Shown one piece after another: positions 21,474 to 29,736 of a stretch of DNA of 64,000 nucleotides. The translations under genes and the position numbers were made by a program. Positions within the stretch are counted from its first letter, which is position 1. Each line of letters starts with the position of its first letter. Origin of the DNA: Nitrosomonadaceae bacterium (GTDB lineage Bacteria; Pseudomonadota; Gammaproteobacteria; Burkholderiales; Nitrosomonadaceae); the NCBI GenBank assembly GCA_030646695.1, contig JAUSLF010000022.1, positions 1 through 64,000 on the forward strand, given 5' to 3'. Under the pieces are notes generated by a model that worked only from the letters and a program-made list of their open reading frames with translations, ran no database searches and was not told the DNA's origin.

Positions 21474-22766
21474 ATGAACTCTTACCCGAAAAAACAAGAG
21501 GCTGATCTGCGTTTTCACAGCCAGATTACACGTAATGCCATAGCGCTGATACTGGCAGGTGGGCGCGGCAGCCGTTTGCAACAGCTCACTGATTGGCGTG
21601 CGAAGCCGGCAGTGCCATTCGGTGGCAAGTTTCGCATCATTGATTTTCCCCTTTCCAATTGCGTCAATTCCGGCATCCGCCGCATCGGTGTTGCCACCCA
21701 GTACAAATCGCAGAGTTTGATCAGTCACATCCAGCACGGCTGGGGTTTTCTTGATGGCCGCTTCAAGGAGTTTGTCGAATTGCTACCTGCGCAGCAGCGG
21801 ATTGAGGAGGCGTGGTACCAGGGAACTGCCGATGCGGTATTCCAGAATCTTGACATCCTGCGCCGCCATGAACCGAAATACGTGTTGATTCTGGGGGGCG
21901 ATCATGTTTATAAAATGGACTACAGCAAGCTGCTGGCCGAGCATGTGGGAAAATCTGCCGATATGACCGTGGCCTGTCTGGAGGTGCCGCTGGAAGAGGC
22001 GAGCGCTTTCGGTGTCATGAGCGCCAATGATGAATTGCGTATCACCAGTTTTGCCGAAAAACCGGCGAACCCGGAACCTATTCCAGGTCAGCCGGGGCAG
22101 GCGCTCGCCAGCATGGGCATTTACGTGTTCAACGCCGCGTTTCTTTTCGAACACTTAATTCGCGATCATGATGATCGCAGCTCATCGCACGATTTTGGCA
22201 AGGATCTGATTCCGTACCTGGTACCCCGCCATCGGGTATTTGCTCACCGTTTTTCCGACAGTTGCGTCAATATGGTCTCAGGAGTACCGTACTGGCGGGA
22301 CGTGGGCACAGTTGACGCCTACTGGGAGGCCAATCTTGGCCTCACCCACGTGACCCCGGAGCTCAACCTGTACGATGAGGACTGGCCGATCTGGACCCAC
22401 CAGGAACAGTTGCCGCCCGCCAAGTTCGTGTTTGATGACGATGACCGGCGCGGCCAGGCGCTGGACTCGATGGTGTCGGGCGGCTGTATCATCAGCGGTT
22501 CGACGGTACGCCGTTCACTGCTGTTTTCCAATGTGCAAGTCCGCAGCTACAGCAGCATTGAGGACTCGGTGATACTGCCCAACGTCGACATCGCTCGGCA
22601 TGCGCGCCTGCGGCGGGTGGTAGTAGACAAGAATTGCATGATTCCTGAAGGACTGACGGTGGGGTTTGATCCGGAGGAAGACCGCAAGCGATTTTATGTT
22701 ACTGAGAAAGGCATCACGCTGATTACCCCGGAAATGCTTGGACAGAGAGTGCATTATGTCAGGTAG
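21474..22766 (+). CDS. glgC: Glucose-1-phosphate adenylyltransferase (ADP-glucose pyrophosphorylase)
   Basis: It makes ADP-glucose from ATP and glucose-1-phosphate, the committed step of glycogen synthesis. The 430-residue protein has the pyrophosphorylase loop [27 protein letters not shown], the substrate block [10 protein letters not shown], and a C-terminal left-handed beta-helix ([16 protein letters not shown]). E. coli GlgC (431) is almost the same length. A GGGAG stands about 12 bases upstream of the ATG, rather far. It is the first gene of a plus-strand run with the two GH57 genes and diverges from glgB. Confidence 0.97.
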
Positions 22767-22854
22767 CCGGATGACTGGGGATCAAGAGCAGAGTGTGGGT
22801 GGCCCGCGACAGCTGAAGTCGTTTCACTGAATTTTCATAGAGTTTCTAGCGGAA

Positions 22855-24561
22855 ATGCAACCACTAAACCTCGTCCTGCTGTGGCACATGCACCAGCCGG
22901 ATTACCGTAATTACAAGACCGGCGAATTTACGCTGCCGTGGGTGTATCTGCATGCCATCAAGGATTACACCGACATGGCGCATCACCTTGAGGCTCATCC
23001 GCGCATCAAGGCAGTAGTGAATTTTGTGCCAGTGTTGCTGGACCAGTTGGAAGATTATGCCGCACAGTTCGCCCTGGGGCGGATGCGCGATCCGCTATTG
23101 CGCTTGCTGGCTACTCCCGAACTGGAGCAGGTATCCGCGAGCGAGCGTCTGCGTGTCTTCGATAGTTGCTTTAGCAGCAACCATACCACCATGATGCAGC
23201 CGTATCCGGCGTACCAACGCCTGTATGACCTGCACGAAATGCTGCGTGGACATGGCGAGGCCCAATTGGCCTATCTTTCCGGTCAATATCTGGCGGACTT
23301 GCTGGTGTGGTATCACCTGGCATGGACCGGCGAGAGTGTGCGCCGGGGCAATGAGGTGGTGGCGCGATTGATGGCGCAAGGCGGGAATTTTAGCCACGCT
23401 GACCGGGTTGAATTGTTTAATCTGATTGGAGAATTGATTCGGGGGTTGATTCCGCGCTACCGCAAGCTGGCCGAGTCGGGCCAGATCGAACTGTCCACGA
23501 CGCCGCATTACCATCCGCTCTCGCCACTGCTGATTGATTTTACTTCTGCCCGCGACAGTCTGCCCGGTGTTGCTTTGCCGACGGAAGAGGTTTATCCGGG
23601 GGGGCGCAGCCGTGTCGCATTTCATGTGACATCAGCGATGGAGAGTCATGTGCGGCGCTTCGGTATCAAGCCTGTTGGCGTATGGCCAGCGGAAGGTGCG
23701 GTATCGTCGCCATTGCTGGAAATCCTGGCAGAGCACGGCTGTCAATGGAGTGCCAGCAGCGAGGGCGTGCTGGTCAATAGTTTGCACAAATCATATCCTG
23801 ACAAGCCGCTGCCGCAGCGAGGTCGTTATCTTTACCGCCCCTACCGGGTGCAGGGGAGAACCGATGGCATGACCTGTTTTTTCCGTGACGATAGACTATC
23901 GGACATGATCGGCTTCGAGTATGCCAAATGGTTCGGACGCGATGCCGCCGAGCATCTGGTGCACTCGTTCGAACAAATCAGCCGTGATGCCCCAGCGGAA
24001 GAGAGCCCAGTGGTGAGCGTGATTCTGGATGGTGAAAATGCCTGGGAATACTATCCTTACAACGGCTATTATTTCTTTGATGATCTTTATGAAATTCTTG
24101 AAAATCATCCATCAATTCGTGCCACCACTTACCGCGACTATATCGCATCCCCAGAGTTTGCCGACGCCGTCGTGCTACCAGTACTGGCGGCGGGTAGTTG
24201 GGTGTACGGGACATTTTCCACCTGGATCGGTGACCCCGACAAAAACCATGCGTGGGACCTGTTATGCGCCGCCAAGCATAGCTACGATCTGGTGATGCAA
24301 AGCGGGCGCCTGACGGCCGAGGAAAAGGCCGCAGCCGGACGGCAACTGGCTTCCTGCGAAAGCTCGGACTGGTTCTGGTGGCTGGGTGATTACAATCCGC
24401 CGAATGTGGTGGAGGGTTTTGATAAGCTGTTTCGCGACAATCTGGCCAATCTTTACAGTTTGCTGAAACTGCCGGTACCGGCAGCGGTGTTTAAGCCTAT
24501 CAGTCATGGTAGCGGACATCCTGAGTCGGGTGGTACGATGCGGCGGGCGACGCAGGAATAA
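22855..24561 (+). CDS. GH57 family glycoside hydrolase
   Basis: This 568-residue GH57 protein probably acts on alpha-glucans. Conserved regions are seen in order: WHMHQPDY near the N-terminus, the nucleophile Glu280 in GVWPAEGAVS, and Asp392 in ILDGENAWEYY as acid/base. The layout is that of the amylase/amylopullulanase-like GH57 group. No signal peptide is present, so it should act in the cytoplasm on glycogen or maltodextrins. The next gene starts four bases after its stop codon, so the two GH57 genes are almost certainly co-transcribed. Exact activity (amylase, pullulanase or transferase) cannot be decided from sequence. Confidence 0.9.
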   Translation: MQPLNLVLLWHMHQPDYRNYKTGEFTLPWVYLHAIKDYTDMAHHLEAHPRIKAVVNFVPVLLDQLEDYAAQFALGRMRDPLLRLLATPELEQVSASERLRVFDSCFSSNHTTMMQPYPAYQRLYDLHEMLRGHGEAQLAYLSGQYLADLLVWYHLAWTGESVRRGNEVVARLMAQGGNFSHADRVELFNLIGELIRGLIPRYRKLAESGQIELSTTPHYHPLSPLLIDFTSARDSLPGVALPTEEVYPGGRSRVAFHVTSAMESHVRRFGIKPVGVWPAEGAVSSPLLEILAEHGCQWSASSEGVLVNSLHKSYPDKPLPQRGRYLYRPYRVQGRTDGMTCFFRDDRLSDMIGFEYAKWFGRDAAEHLVHSFEQISRDAPAEESPVVSVILDGENAWEYYPYNGYYFFDDLYEILENHPSIRATTYRDYIASPEFADAVVLPVLAAGSWVYGTFSTWIGDPDKNHAWDLLCAAKHSYDLVMQSGRLTAEEKAAAGRQLASCESSDWFWWLGDYNPPNVVEGFDKLFRDNLANLYSLLKLPVPAAVFKPISHGSGHPESGGTMRRATQE

Positions 24562-24565
24562 TCCG

Positions 24566-26587
24566 ATGCCCCCACCCATTTCCCTGCTTTTCGGTGTGCA
24601 TGCTCACCAGCCTGTCGGCAATTTTCCAGAAGTGCTGGCCGATGCGCACCTGCGCTGTTACCAACCCTTTCTGCGGGTACTCTACCGCTACCCGGATTTC
24701 CGCTTTGCGGTACATTTTTCCGGCTGGTTGCTGGATTATCTGATCGAACATTATCCGGAAGACATGGCACTGTTGCGGGAAATGGTGGCGCGGGGGCAGG
24801 TGGAATTATTCGGCGCGGGCGACACCGAGCCGGTGCTGGCAGTGATCCCCAACCGTGATCGTATCGGACAAATCCAGACTTTTTCCGACAAGCTGGAAAT
24901 GAAATTAGGGCAACGCCCGCAGGGCGCGTGGCTGACAGAACGGGTGTGGGAGGCAACGGTAGTTCCGGCGCTGGCTGATTGCGGCATACGCTATGTGATT
25001 GTGGACGACTATCATTTTCTTTGCACCGGTAAAACGGTGGCGGAATTGAATGGTTATTTCACCACCGAGGAGGATGGGCGCACGCTGGACCTGTTCCCCA
25101 TTTCTGAAACCTTGCGTTACAAGCTGCCGTTTTCTCCGGCCCACGAAGCGGTGGCGTATATCGAGTCTCTGGCCGAGGGCAGTACGGCAGACGGCGGCAA
25201 TGCAGCGGTTTATTTCGATGACATCGAAAAATTCGGTATTTGGCCAGAAACTTACCAATGGGTATACGAAAAAGGTTGGCTCGATCAATTCATTCAAGGT
25301 GTGCTGGCCTCGCCAAAAATCCGCACCCAGCACTACCGCGATTATCATGCCAGCGGAAAGACTCGTGGCATAGTGTATCTGCCCACCACTTCCTACATCG
25401 AAATGAACGAGTGGACACTTCCTGCGCAGCCTGCCAATGCCTACGCCGATCTGGTGCAGCAGGCAAAAACGGACGGTCGATACGAACGCGATAAAGCGTT
25501 TCTGCGCGGCGGCATCTGGAAAAATTTCTTTTCGCTCTATCCCGAGTCCAACTGGATGCACAAGCGCATGCTAGGACTTTCTGCGCGTCTCGCCACGCTA
25601 CCGCAGAAGCAGCGCACCGCCACAATGCAGCAGAAGCTGTACGAGTCTCAAGCCAATGACGCTTACTGGCATGGTTTGTTTGGTGGTCTGTATCTGCCCC
25701 ACCTGCGGCGCGCAGTATATAACGACATGGTCGCTTTGGAAGCAATGCTGGATGCCTGTGCGCCACGCCCGGTCCGCTTCATGGAAGATACCGATCTTGA
25801 CGGGGTGGATGAAGTATATCTGCAGAATGGCGTGATCCAGGCGGTGTTGAAACTCGATGGTGACGCCTGTATTTGTGAACTTGATGCCTATGCGCTCAAA
25901 CATAACTTCGGTGATACCTTGCGACGTCAGACTGAGCACTATTACCGCCGGATTCAACAGGGTGGGGGAGGCGGACACCGGCACAGTGATACGGGTATCG
26001 CCTCGGCGCACGAGCGCGTCAATTTCAAGCACAAAATAAATGCCGCAGACATGGAGGCTGACGATCATGCACGCGGATTGTTCGTTGATCGTCTGAATGG
26101 GGTGTTCATGCACTACCGCCACGATCCTTCCACTGCGGGCGGCGTGCATTTCCGGGCGGATACGCCCTGCCTGTCTGTGAGCAAAAGTTTCGAACTCGCG
26201 GCTAACCACCTGCAGGTGTCGTACCGCTTCACCGGCGAAGTGGAGGGCGTATTCAGCACTGAACTCAATCTCGCCATGCCCAGTTGCGACGGCTGGGGCG
26301 GACGCTATATTCACCAGGGGAAAATTCCCGGCGGCTTTGGTCAACCGTTGGAACTGAGTGCGCTGGATGAGATAACGCTGGACGATGACGTGCTGGCCGG
26401 AAGCGTTACCTTGCATGTTTCCTCGCCAGTGGCGCTATCTGCGCAGCCGCATTATTCCGTATCGCAATCCGAGGGCGGATTCGAGAAAATCATGCAGGCG
26501 GTGACGCTGAAACTGGAATGGCCGGTGACCGCGCGGGAGTTGACCATCACTCTGGAGATAGTCGTGCGCGGTAAGGAAGCTGCATGA
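24566..26587 (+). CDS. GH57 family 4-alpha-glucanotransferase / alpha-amylase
   Basis: It has 673 residues from the ATG at 24566, which is favoured by AGGAA upstream; a longer frame overlaps the previous gene. Residues 1 to ~300 form the GH57 barrel with HAHQPVGNF, the nucleophile Glu125 in WLTERVWEA, and Asp218/219 in YFDDIEKFG. The C-terminal half is beta-rich (EDTDLDGVDEVYLQN), as in Thermococcus litoralis 4-alpha-glucanotransferase, which has 659 residues with Glu123 and Asp214. The match in length and spacing supports a glucanotransferase or closely related amylase. It lies directly behind the first GH57 gene. Confidence 0.9.
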   Translation: MPPPISLLFGVHAHQPVGNFPEVLADAHLRCYQPFLRVLYRYPDFRFAVHFSGWLLDYLIEHYPEDMALLREMVARGQVELFGAGDTEPVLAVIPNRDRIGQIQTFSDKLEMKLGQRPQGAWLTERVWEATVVPALADCGIRYVIVDDYHFLCTGKTVAELNGYFTTEEDGRTLDLFPISETLRYKLPFSPAHEAVAYIESLAEGSTADGGNAAVYFDDIEKFGIWPETYQWVYEKGWLDQFIQGVLASPKIRTQHYRDYHASGKTRGIVYLPTTSYIEMNEWTLPAQPANAYADLVQQAKTDGRYERDKAFLRGGIWKNFFSLYPESNWMHKRMLGLSARLATLPQKQRTATMQQKLYESQANDAYWHGLFGGLYLPHLRRAVYNDMVALEAMLDACAPRPVRFMEDTDLDGVDEVYLQNGVIQAVLKLDGDACICELDAYALKHNFGDTLRRQTEHYYRRIQQGGGGGHRHSDTGIASAHERVNFKHKINAADMEADDHARGLFVDRLNGVFMHYRHDPSTAGGVHFRADTPCLSVSKSFELAANHLQVSYRFTGEVEGVFSTELNLAMPSCDGWGGRYIHQGKIPGGFGQPLELSALDEITLDDDVLAGSVTLHVSSPVALSAQPHYSVSQSEGGFEKIMQAVTLKLEWPVTARELTITLEIVVRGKEAA

Positions 26588-26621: not shown

Positions 26622-27482
26622 TCAAATCACGTTGACGGGTACTTTTAGATAAGTAGTACCGTTCGCTTCCGGCGGCGGCATCTCCCCAGCGCGCACATTG
26701 ATCTGCACCGATGGCAGCAACAAGGTCGGCATCTCGAGCGTGGCGTCACGCGCTTCACGCATGGCAACAAACTCGTCTTCGCCAATGCCGTCATGCACAT
26801 GAATGTTGTGCGCGCGCTGCTCGGCCACCGTGCTTTGCCACTGCGCAGGGCGATTTAAGGGCGGGTAGTCGTGGCACATGAACAGTCGTGTTGCCGGAGG
26901 TTGTGCGAGCAATCGGCGGATCGAGCGGAACAGGCGGCGGGCATCACCACCCGGAAAATCGGCGCGAGCCGTGCCCACATCCGGCATGAACAGCGTATCA
27001 CCCACAAAGATTGCGTCACCGAATTGATAAGCCAGATCGGCTGGTGTATGGCCTGGTAGCGAAATGGCTGTTGCGCTCAGTTTGCCAACCTTGAAAGTCT
27101 CGGCATCCGTCAATAAATAATCAAACTGCCTGCCGTCCGGTATGAACTCAGGTCCAAGATTGAATATCTTCTTGAAAGTCTCCTGCACCTGGGGAATTTC
27201 ATTGCCTATGGCAATTTTTCCACCTAGTTTTTCCCTGAGATAATGTGCGGATGAGATGTGATCGGCGTGTGCATGCGTTTCGAGTATCCATGCGACGGTC
27301 AGCTGCCGGTCGTTGATGAAAGTGACCAACTTGTCTGCAGATAAGGTACTGATTCGGGCAGACTTTGGCTCGTAATCCAGGACGGGATCGATAATCGCGC
27401 AACTACCGCCGGACTCGTCAAATACAATGTAGCTGACGGTCCACGTGGCTGGGTCAAAAAAGGCTTGAATCTGCGGGGACAT
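26622..27482 (-). CDS. Blh-like MBL-fold hydrolase, probable persulfide dioxygenase
   Basis: This 286-residue metallo-beta-lactamase-fold protein carries THAHADHISSAHYL, the glyoxalase-II-like GHTPADLAY, GDTLFMPDVGTARAD and CHDYPP, the metal ligands of the ETHE1/Blh sulfur dioxygenase group. These oxidise glutathione persulfide to sulfite. It is divergent from two YeeE/YedE genes and a BigR-type repressor, the usual Blh neighbourhood in Xylella, Agrobacterium and relatives. Its promoter overlaps the shared palindrome at 27516-27541, so repression by the adjacent ArsR protein is likely. It has no N-terminal rhodanese or BigR-associated extension. Family and pathway are well supported; activity is inferred. 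Confidence 0.88.
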   Translation of the reverse strand: MSPQIQAFFDPATWTVSYIVFDESGGSCAIIDPVLDYEPKSARISTLSADKLVTFINDRQLTVAWILETHAHADHISSAHYLREKLGGKIAIGNEIPQVQETFKKIFNLGPEFIPDGRQFDYLLTDAETFKVGKLSATAISLPGHTPADLAYQFGDAIFVGDTLFMPDVGTARADFPGGDARRLFRSIRRLLAQPPATRLFMCHDYPPLNRPAQWQSTVAEQRAHNIHVHDGIGEDEFVAMREARDATLEMPTLLLPSVQINVRAGEMPPPEANGTTYLKVPVNVI

Positions 27483-27510
27483 CGTTTTCTCCTGTATTTA
27501 GAAATTTGTC

Positions 27511-27547
27511 TTGACAATAATATATCAATTAATATATTATTCGTCAA
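27511..27547. promoter_or_regulatory. BigR-type operator with overlapping divergent promoters
   Basis: A 26-bp AT-rich palindrome fills 27516-27541: arms AATAATATAT and ATATATTATT around CAATTA. On the plus strand TTGACA (27511-27516) is followed after 16 bases by TATATT (27533-27538). On the minus strand TTGACG (27547-27542) is followed after 17 bases by TATATT (27524-27519). The two promoters face each other across the same palindrome, so a repressor bound there would block both. AT-rich palindromes of this kind are the known target type of BigR in Xylella and Agrobacterium. Confidence 0.85.
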
Positions 27548-27606
27548 CATAATATTAGTGGCTCGCAAGGAACCACTTCCCAAAATCAGGCAGGAGGATA
27601 AATAAA

Positions 27607-28041
27607 ATGTTGATTGATTGGTCTCACTTCACCCCGTGGTCCGCGCTGGCAGGCGGGATGACCATTGGCATCGCGGCAGCGCTGTTCGTATTGCTAAACG
27701 GACGTATTGCCGGAATTTCCGGCATAGTCGGCGGATTGTTCAGGTTGCAGACGGGTGATATGGGCTGGCGTATTGCGTTTGTTGCAGGGCTGGTCGCTGC
27801 GCCGCTGGTGTGGCAACTGTTTCATCGCCTGCCTGATCTTCATATTAATACCGGCTACGGCATGCTGGCGCTGGCTGGTTTGATTGTCGGCGTTGGCACG
27901 CGCTACGGCTCCGGCTGTACCAGTGGTCACGGGATTTGCGGAATGTCCCGACTGTCGCCGCGCTCTATCATTGCCACCCTGGTATTCATGTGTACAGGCT
28001 TTGTCACCGTTTACATGATGCGACATGTGTTCGGCGGATAG
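27607..28041 (+). CDS. YeeE/YedE family half-transporter (sulfur transport), first
   Basis: This 144-residue membrane protein has about four hydrophobic segments. The family signature GTRYGSGCTSGHGICGMSRLS contains the cysteine thought to handle sulfur species. CAGGAGGA stands close before the ATG. YeeE/YedE proteins import thiosulfate or related sulfur compounds; the short PmpA/PmpB-type proteins come in pairs, each half of a full-length YeeE. It is the first gene of the plus-strand operon with its partner, the repressor and a TauE exporter, and is driven from the palindromic promoter region. Confidence 0.9.
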   Translation: MLIDWSHFTPWSALAGGMTIGIAAALFVLLNGRIAGISGIVGGLFRLQTGDMGWRIAFVAGLVAAPLVWQLFHRLPDLHINTGYGMLALAGLIVGVGTRYGSGCTSGHGICGMSRLSPRSIIATLVFMCTGFVTVYMMRHVFGG

Positions 28042-28065: not shown

Positions 28066-28512
28066 ATGGTCAACATCACTGCATTGCTAGCGGGTCTGAT
28101 CTTCGGCTTGGGACTCATTCTGGCGGGAATGGCGGATCCGGCCAAGGTTCTGGCATTTCTCGATATTACCGGTGCATGGGATCCTTCTCTCGCATTGGTC
28201 ATGGGGGGCGCGATTGCCGTGGGATCGATCGCTTTCGCCGTGGCTGGCAGGCGCAGCCGCAGTTATCTGGGGTTGCCCATGCACTTGCCTACTGCGCGGG
28301 TGATCGATAAGCGCCTGGTGCTGGGGAGTCTTGCATTCGGCATCGGCTGGGGGATGGCCGGTATCTGCCCCGGGCCGGCACTGGTTTTGCTGGGGGCTGG
28401 CAGCCGCGAAGGCATCGTGTTTGTGGCGGCAATGCTGCTGGGAATGGGGGGTTTTGAAATTCTGGAAAGATCCAAATCCGTTGAACGGCCCAAAATGGGG
28501 CGGCATGTCTAA
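28066..28512 (+). CDS. YeeE/YedE family half-transporter (DUF6691-like), second
   Basis: This 148-residue membrane protein has several hydrophobic segments, and GFGIGWGMAGICPGPALVLLG (last part GICPGPAL) holds the conserved cysteine. It is the natural partner of the preceding gene, 24 bases upstream, with GGAGGAG before its ATG. The GLILAGMADPAKVLAFLDI block near the N-terminus is characteristic of the second half-protein in PmpA/PmpB pairs. Together the two should form a channel or importer for a reduced sulfur species. The substrate is not evident from sequence. Confidence 0.88.
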   Translation: MVNITALLAGLIFGLGLILAGMADPAKVLAFLDITGAWDPSLALVMGGAIAVGSIAFAVAGRRSRSYLGLPMHLPTARVIDKRLVLGSLAFGIGWGMAGICPGPALVLLGAGSREGIVFVAAMLLGMGGFEILERSKSVERPKMGRHV

Positions 28513-28575
28513 GGAATCACTGAACAAGTCCCATGCAGGTGCGATGGGGGTTTTGCACGAAAGGCGGAGGTGTTT

Positions 28576-28899
28576 ATGAAAACGGAAGCAGATTTACCCA
28601 GTATTGCGGTGATACGCGCATCCGCAACGGAAGCCTGTTCCATGCTGAAAGTGCTGGCAAACGAAGACAGGCTGCTCATTTTATGTCAGTTGATTCAAGG
28701 CGCCAGAAACGTCGGCGAGCTGGAAGAGTTGCTGGATATCCGGCAGCCTACACTATCACAGCAGCTCACCGTGCTGCGCGCAGAGGGGTTAGTCACAACT
28801 GAGCGCAAAGGTAAATACATCTATTACAGTCTGTCCAGCCATGAAGTAATTCAAATCATGCAGACTTTATCCGGTCTTTATTGTGACAAGGGCCATTGA
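28576..28899 (+). CDS. ArsR/SmtB-family repressor of BigR/SqrR type
   Basis: This 107-residue winged-helix regulator has the recognition-helix region DIRQPTLSQQLTVLRAEGLV and the wing TERKGKYIYYSL. Starting at the ATG 28576 (GGAGG five bases upstream; the GTG at 28570 is less likely), the cysteines that matter are Cys37 in LILCQL and Cys103 in LYCDKGH. Their spacing of 66 residues equals that of Cys42/Cys108 in Xylella BigR and Cys41/Cys107 in SqrR, which form a disulfide or tetrasulfide with persulfides. It probably represses its own operon and the divergent hydrolase through the 27516-27541 palindrome. An additional Cys21 is present. Confidence 0.92.
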   Translation: MKTEADLPSIAVIRASATEACSMLKVLANEDRLLILCQLIQGARNVGELEELLDIRQPTLSQQLTVLRAEGLVTTERKGKYIYYSLSSHEVIQIMQTLSGLYCDKGH

Positions 28900-28902
28900 G
28901 TC

Positions 28903-29736
28903 ATGGAGCAGCAAGCAATCCAGATAACCAGTGCGCTGCTAGGTTCTCTTGTGGGCATAATTCTCGCGCTTACTGGCGCAGGCGGCGCCATCATTGCGGT
29001 TCCCCTGCTCATCTTTGGTTTGCATCTTGCTGTTGCCGAGGCAGCCCCTATTGCGCTGCTTGCCGTGAGCTTGTCGGCTGCCATTGGAGCCATGCTGGCG
29101 CTGAAGCTGGGAAAAGTGAGATACCGGGCGGCCGGGTTGATCGCTGTTAGCGGTGTCCTGACTGCACCCATCGGCATCTGGGCAGCGCACAAATTACCCA
29201 ACGCGCCTCTGACCCTGTTGTTTGCCATCGTATTGGCGTACGTTGCGGTTCACATGCTGCGCCAGAGCAGGACGGTTGCTGCCAGGATTGAAGAGTCACG
29301 CCCTGCCGCTGTGCCCTGCCAGCTTGATACAGGCATCGGACGTCTGATCTGGACCGAGCCTTGTGCCAGGGCACTGGCAATTTCAGGCGCTTTTGCGGGC
29401 TCTTTGTCGGGTCTGCTGGGGGTTGGTGGTGGTTTTGTCGTGGTGCCCGCACTCAGGAAAGCCACCAATCTGGAGATGCAGTCCATACTTGCAACATCGC
29501 TTGCAGTGATCGCACTTATTTCCGCAACCGGTGTCGCCTCAGCCGTTTTGATTGGTGGAATGGACTGGTCAATCGGACTTCCATTTTCCGCTGGCGCGAT
29601 CGCCGGAATGGTGGCAGGCGGAATATTTGCCAAGCGTTTTGCGGGCCCAAAGCTGCAACAGAGCTTTGCTGTTCTCGCGCTCTGTGTGGCGCTGGGCATG
29701 GTTGTTAAAGTGGTACTGACTGCGGGCATCGTTTAA
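28903..29736 (+). CDS. TauE/SafE family sulfite/sulfur-compound exporter
   Basis: This 277-residue integral membrane protein has the two-fold repeat of the TauE/SafE family: ALTGAGGAIIAVPLLIF in the N-terminal half and GLLGVGGGFVVVPAL in the C-terminal half, with about eight hydrophobic segments. It follows the repressor stop by three bases, so it belongs to the operon. In persulfide-response loci such proteins are thought to expel sulfite produced by the dioxygenase. Substrate is inferred from context. Confidence 0.9.
   Translation: MEQQAIQITSALLGSLVGIILALTGAGGAIIAVPLLIFGLHLAVAEAAPIALLAVSLSAAIGAMLALKLGKVRYRAAGLIAVSGVLTAPIGIWAAHKLPNAPLTLLFAIVLAYVAVHMLRQSRTVAARIEESRPAAVPCQLDTGIGRLIWTEPCARALAISGAFAGSLSGLLGVGGGFVVVPALRKATNLEMQSILATSLAVIALISATGVASAVLIGGMDWSIGLPFSAGAIAGMVAGGIFAKRFAGPKLQQSFAVLALCVALGMVVKVVLTAGIV

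Follow-up and report, generated by a model that had tools for sequence, protein, structure and literature searches.

Background

In the available text of PMC5823870, the bigR genes form a single operon that includes a two-domain Blh; BigR targets the -10 region of this operon and is released when its two cysteines become bridged. For natural bidirectional promoters of E. coli, the accessible part of Warman et al. 2026 (PMC12825309) reports little competition between the two directions at basal activity; the five bidirectional promoters tested there had low basal activity, and clear competition appeared only after a -35 had been strengthened. Polymerase competition at naturally strong bidirectional promoters has been little studied.

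Here we describe a 37-bp element within a 64,000-nucleotide stretch of DNA (the window), which an earlier note, made from the letters alone, had taken for an unusually compact divergent switch repressed by a BigR-type protein. We give a probability of roughly three in four to the reading that this element is a promoter-operator common to two divergent sulfide-detoxification units, governed by a BigR/SqrR-like repressor and used by alternating polymerases.

Results

The 37-bp element and its two predicted promoters

The element (TTGACAATAATATATCAATTAATATATTATTCGTCAA; Table 1) is a TTGAC-N27-GTCAA frame that encloses an AT-rich palindrome of 26 bp, whose 13-bp arms are matched at 12 of 13 pairs. 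On the plus strand the promoter scan placed a -35 TTGACA at 27511-27516 and, after a spacer of 16, a -10 TATATT at 27533-27538, with TATTAT at 27535-27540 (spacer 18) as an alternative -10. On the minus strand it placed TTGACG at 27547-27542 and, after a spacer of 17, TATATT at 27524-27519, preceded by TG. Transcription is predicted from these positions to start near 27545 on the plus strand and near 27512 on the minus strand. The hexamers of the two strands interleave over the same DNA, 20-22 bp of promoter DNA being common to both directions, and the palindrome covers both -10 regions. The centre of the outer arms is displaced by half a base from that of the core palindrome (19 vs 18.5, counted from 27511). 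Sequence, promoter scan and palindrome analysis thus bear out the coordinates first given for the element and its description as two promoters facing each other through one 26-bp palindrome.

Table 1. Coordinates of the 37-bp element, its parts and the adjoining genes in the window
Feature	Coordinates	Strand	Evidence or remark
Metallo-beta-lactamase-fold persulfide (sulfur) dioxygenase, stand-alone	26622..27482	-	Matches dioxygenase half of Blh
Composite element, two facing promoters and one palindrome	27511..27547	.	Sequence, promoter scan, shuffles, conservation
Promoter toward pmpA-pmpB-arsR-tauE, TTGACA-16-TATATT	27511..27538	+	Promoter scan
Palindrome, probable operator of BigR/SqrR-like repressor (putative binding)	27516..27541	.	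Palindrome analysis
Promoter toward persulfide dioxygenase gene, TTGACG-17-TATATT	27519..27547	-	Promoter scan
pmpA-like YeeE/YedE sulfur transport half (PF04143)	27607..28041	+	
pmpB-like YeeE/YedE half (PF20398)	28066..28512	+	
ArsR-family regulator, SqrR/BigR group	28570..28899	+	Cys39 and Cys105 aligned with two sensor cysteines
TauE/SafE-family exporter (PF01925)	28903..29736	+	

Genes on either side

The dioxygenase matched the Blh model over positions 141-422 of 423 with 387 bits, below the cut-off of 625. It lacks the sulfurtransferase half and therefore belongs to the stand-alone persulfide dioxygenase type, outside the bifunctional Blh proteins, which are recognised by having both domains. 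The solved structures nearest to the ArsR protein are BigR and SqrR, the latter being entries 6o8l to 6o8o, which carry the label of ArsR-family regulator only and which we take to be SqrR. Its Cys39 and Cys105 align with the sensor cysteines of these chains (41/107 in SqrR, 42/108 in BigR). The protein passed the ArsR/SmtB subfamily model (84.3 vs a cut-off of 55) and scored 94.1 bits against the curated NCBIfam BigR equivalog, whose cut-off is 155; we therefore call it SqrR/BigR-like. The earlier note's BigR-type protein is indeed the ArsR regulator of the plus arm, with both sensor cysteines, but it scores below the level at which the BigR name itself would apply.

A GH57 glucanotransferase-type gene (24506-26587) adjoins the sulfur cluster and is preceded by an ORF that, judged by eye, is ADP-glucose pyrophosphorylase-like (region 21474-26587).

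Conservation within the genus

Among six genomes of the same genus, that of the window and five others, the 37-bp element is invariant at 34 of its 37 positions; the left flank keeps 4 of 28 positions and the right flank 11 of 37. Part of these low flank figures is owed to insertions in three loci (L003, L006 and L007). They lie on the pmpA side of the element, and in L006 on the dioxygenase side as well, and stretch the intergenic region to 249-571 bp while leaving the element untouched. The inserted sequences are related, contain TTCCAGTTCGAAAGTGAAAC... and are apparently a dispersed repeat.

The pmpA leader holds a short hairpin at 27557-27577 (AGTGGCTCGCAAGGAACCACT). In L004-L007 its stem is altered, several pairs being retained through changes on both sides. 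Considered as an RNA element, the hairpin had an unremarkable fold energy (z-score -0.80).

Conservation across divergent dioxygenase loci

Relatives were collected by searches that favour best hits. The family search matched 72 of 125 genomes, from which 30 loci and 40 further regions were taken; a second relative set comprised the best 80 of 475; and the order search matched 143 of 399 genomes and supplied 29 loci beside the window together with 60 further regions. Those named (Nitrosomonadaceae, Nitrosospira, Nitrosomonas) suggest that the window's genome is one of the Nitrosomonadaceae. Before divergent and one-way loci were counted, we dropped 22 identical 37-mers, one interval shorter than 45 bp, one locus without upstream sequence, and 53 loci in which arsR did not come first and no dioxygenase diverged.

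TTGAC-N27-GTCAA was found exactly in 14 of 105 distinct intergenic regions running from a divergent dioxygenase to pmpA or arsR, at least six of the 14 belonging to the window's genus. The same exact arms stood at N26 in one of the 105 and at none of the other spacings from 20 to 36. When arms matched at 9 or more of 10 positions were accepted, 20 occurrences were seen at N27, where about 0.4 were expected, and nine at N23. Overlapping opposed promoters, both scoring at least 9 with generic sigma70 frequencies as weights, were present in 97 of 135 distinct loci in which a dioxygenase diverges from pmp or arsR genes (4.4% of 1350 shuffles), the pair falling below threshold in the remaining 38. 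The two -35s were offset by exactly 36 in 34 of the 135 loci and in 0 of 1350 shuffles. Typical divergent members combine spacers of 16 and 17, one for each direction, and their cores are widely different.

A second layout places the -35s inside, 21-22 bases apart, and the -10s outside; 23 of the 135 divergent loci have it, as do 3 of the 26 one-way loci. It appears as a TTGAC-N13-GTCAA-like sequence in L133, L134, L137, L145, L150, L187, L190 and L194, where each -35 lies within the spacer of the opposite promoter. Since its symmetry is kept in some one-way loci, TTGA..TCAA may be an operator in that layout.

Use of the motif as a regulon marker was rejected. The bare TTGAC-N27-GTCAA matched four sites in the genome and a backwards control likewise four; a motif with the AT core matched in 12 of the 399 order genomes, with control matches similar in number. 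As motif and control matches are about equal, the motif alone marks no regulon, and the 37-bp frame may help to recognise divergent persulfide-detoxification loci, not by itself.

One-way loci as a natural control

The alternative that fares best among those considered takes all 37 bp as one extended operator, with the outer TTGAC and GTCAA arms contacting the repressor and a single working promoter direction. The outer arms are symmetric, a relative, HlyU, protects 35 bp around a 17-bp core (available text of PMC4330345), and loci with an offset of 22 retain the TTGA..TCAA symmetry also where no divergent dioxygenase is present. The two readings differ in what they predict for the far GTCAA box: as the -35 of the dioxygenase promoter it should be lost from loci without a divergent dioxygenase, and as part of an operator it should be kept.

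Twenty-six such one-way loci were available, partly from other lineages and possibly with other, unrelated divergent genes. A far GTCAA box with at least 4 of 5 matches was present in 0 of these 26 and in 29 of 135 divergent loci (Fisher p 0.003), the mean match at N27 being at background, 1.31 of 5, in the former and 2.36 in the latter. An offset of 36 was likewise seen in 1 of 26 one-way vs 34 of 135 divergent loci (Fisher p 0.009). The near -35 was kept, and plus-promoter scores were alike (11.5 divergent, 10.8 one-way). When arsR-first loci were clustered by their ArsR protein at 85%, the difference in GTCAA stayed (2.46 vs 1.30, p 0.0006), and at 75% identity it remained weakly (p 0.03); after clustering by 37-mer similarity it was no longer significant (1.53 vs 1.26, p 0.17), while the score of the overlapping minus promoter still differed (p 0.002).

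The second -35 thus goes with the divergent dioxygenase gene, and its loss from one-way loci favours GTCAA as the -35 of the dioxygenase promoter rather than as operator. The spacing of the arms, moreover, is fixed at what two promoter spacers of 16-17 bp need, and their half-base displacement from the core fits a 16/17 pair of spacers, not one symmetric dimer. We accordingly regard an extended operator as unlikely; the comparison with one-way loci supports two promoters, short of proof.

Chance controls

Dinucleotide shuffles (n=5000 each) were made of the 124-bp intergenic region or of the AT-rich core alone. An equally good palindrome arose in 8 and 17 of these, respectively, and an overlapping facing pair totalling at least 21 of 24 in 1 and 4; with the palindrome fixed and the flanks alone shuffled, a total of 21 was reached in 0 of 5000. 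The 64 kb contain no second facing pair in which each strand matches 10 or more of 12, and the palindrome occurs once in the whole genome, three mismatches being allowed. An AT-rich palindrome alone yields TATATT on both strands, so the informative part is the two -35 elements. A further alternative sees in the palindrome a symmetry of AT-rich DNA due to chance or structure and puts the promoters in use elsewhere in 27483-27606. It draws on these two ready-made -10s and on the fact that motif scans do not show function, but is made very improbable by the shuffles, the conservation and a promoter scan in which no other promoter-like site appeared within 27483-27606.

Discussion

A probable co-regulated pair

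In the shared promoter-operator that we propose, the reduced BigR/SqrR-like repressor, itself a product of the plus arm, would sit on the central palindrome and keep both promoters off; since that palindrome spans the -10s of the two promoters, a single dimer would suffice to shut down both directions. Persulfide or polysulfide would bridge the two cysteines of the repressor and make it depart, after which polymerase may enter from either side. Simultaneous binding in both orientations is not expected from the known size of the polymerase footprint and the 20-22 bp of shared DNA. As both polymerases require the same DNA they would take turns, each excluding the other only while bound, so that both arms would be served in turn, and the relative strengths of the promoters would set the ratio of dioxygenase to transporter after derepression.

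The element is therefore most likely a co-regulated pair rather than a switch of direction, since both arms belong to one sulfide/persulfide pathway with one probable operator and should come on together. A true either-or switch, in which strong firing one way silences the other direction for long periods, could appeal to the near-consensus state of both -35 elements and to E. coli, where a strengthened -35 brought a large drop in the transcript of the other direction (accessible part of PMC12825309). One pathway and one operator speak against it, near-equal promoters would share rather than exclude, and no positive feedback locking one direction is visible at the locus; we consider it highly unlikely. 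Competition between polymerases is itself plausible, given two -35s near consensus, and would set a ratio and not choose a direction.

What stands of the initial reading is two good sigma70-type promoters on the same DNA, conserved as a pair; the word switch does not fit, nor does unusual compactness. In the available text of PMC12825309, divergent starts at bidirectional promoters of E. coli are often separated by 10, 18 or 23 bp, less than the 33 bp or so that we predict, and the layout recurs in many relatives of the locus, as the offset of 36 indicates.

More tentatively, the divergent persulfide-dioxygenase loci of Betaproteobacteria might share one conserved, symmetric promoter-operator module, a BigR-type palindrome framed by TTGAC-N27-GTCAA. 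Its two strong promoters would be kept in a state of polymerase competition, and mutual exclusion after derepression would hold the dioxygenase:transporter ratio constant and damp noise; we rate this proposal, taken as a whole, as possible but doubtful. The locus would offer a clean test case: both -35s are near consensus, the probable operator is single, the products serve the same pathway, and one-way relatives provide natural controls.

Comparison with known systems

Among the papers listed in our literature searches, none was recognised as a description of such a promoter geometry at a BigR-type locus, though this does not prove absence. In the bioA/bioB region of E. coli, the BirA operator overlaps both promoters, one repressor site serving both arms. 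This region, named in the accessible part of PMC12825309, resembles ours in its overlapping divergent promoters and differs in repressor, ligand and spacing. The bidirectional promoters of E. coli, as far as the same text describes them, are pseudo-symmetric DNA from which a pair of divergent RNAs arises, in many cases mRNAs whose functions are linked. In them, as expected for our element, two polymerases do not bind simultaneously and compete according to strength. Their divergent starts, however, are grouped around a shared -10 at distances of about 10-23 bp, which by definition places our element outside the class, as the predicted -10s at 27519-27524 and 27533-27538 do not overlap; here the -10 hexamers are 8 bp apart, the starts a predicted 33 bp or so, and both -35s outside. 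The bigR operon of Xylella and Agrobacterium (available text of PMC5823870) has, like our locus, genes for a BigR-type sensor, a dioxygenase and TauE, and its repressor sits on the -10 region, as we infer for ours; unlike it, our locus has a single-domain dioxygenase divergent from pmpAB-arsR-tauE. In Serratia, the divergent operons under PigS control, cited in the reference lists of PMC7315123, PMC12423496 and PMC9774590, likewise combine an ArsR-family regulator with transporters of sulfur compounds. The conjugation switch of pLS20 is comparable in that a single regulator controls divergent promoters which overlap and differ in strength, but there, in the available text of PMC4207663, this regulator brings about genuine switching that involves DNA looping and autoregulation. 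Divergent promoters that overlap, and polymerases that exclude one another at them, have precedents in the E. coli bidirectional promoters and in bioA/bioB. The element described here is a real and conserved instance of that known kind, in which promoters of opposite direction overlap and probably have a common operator.
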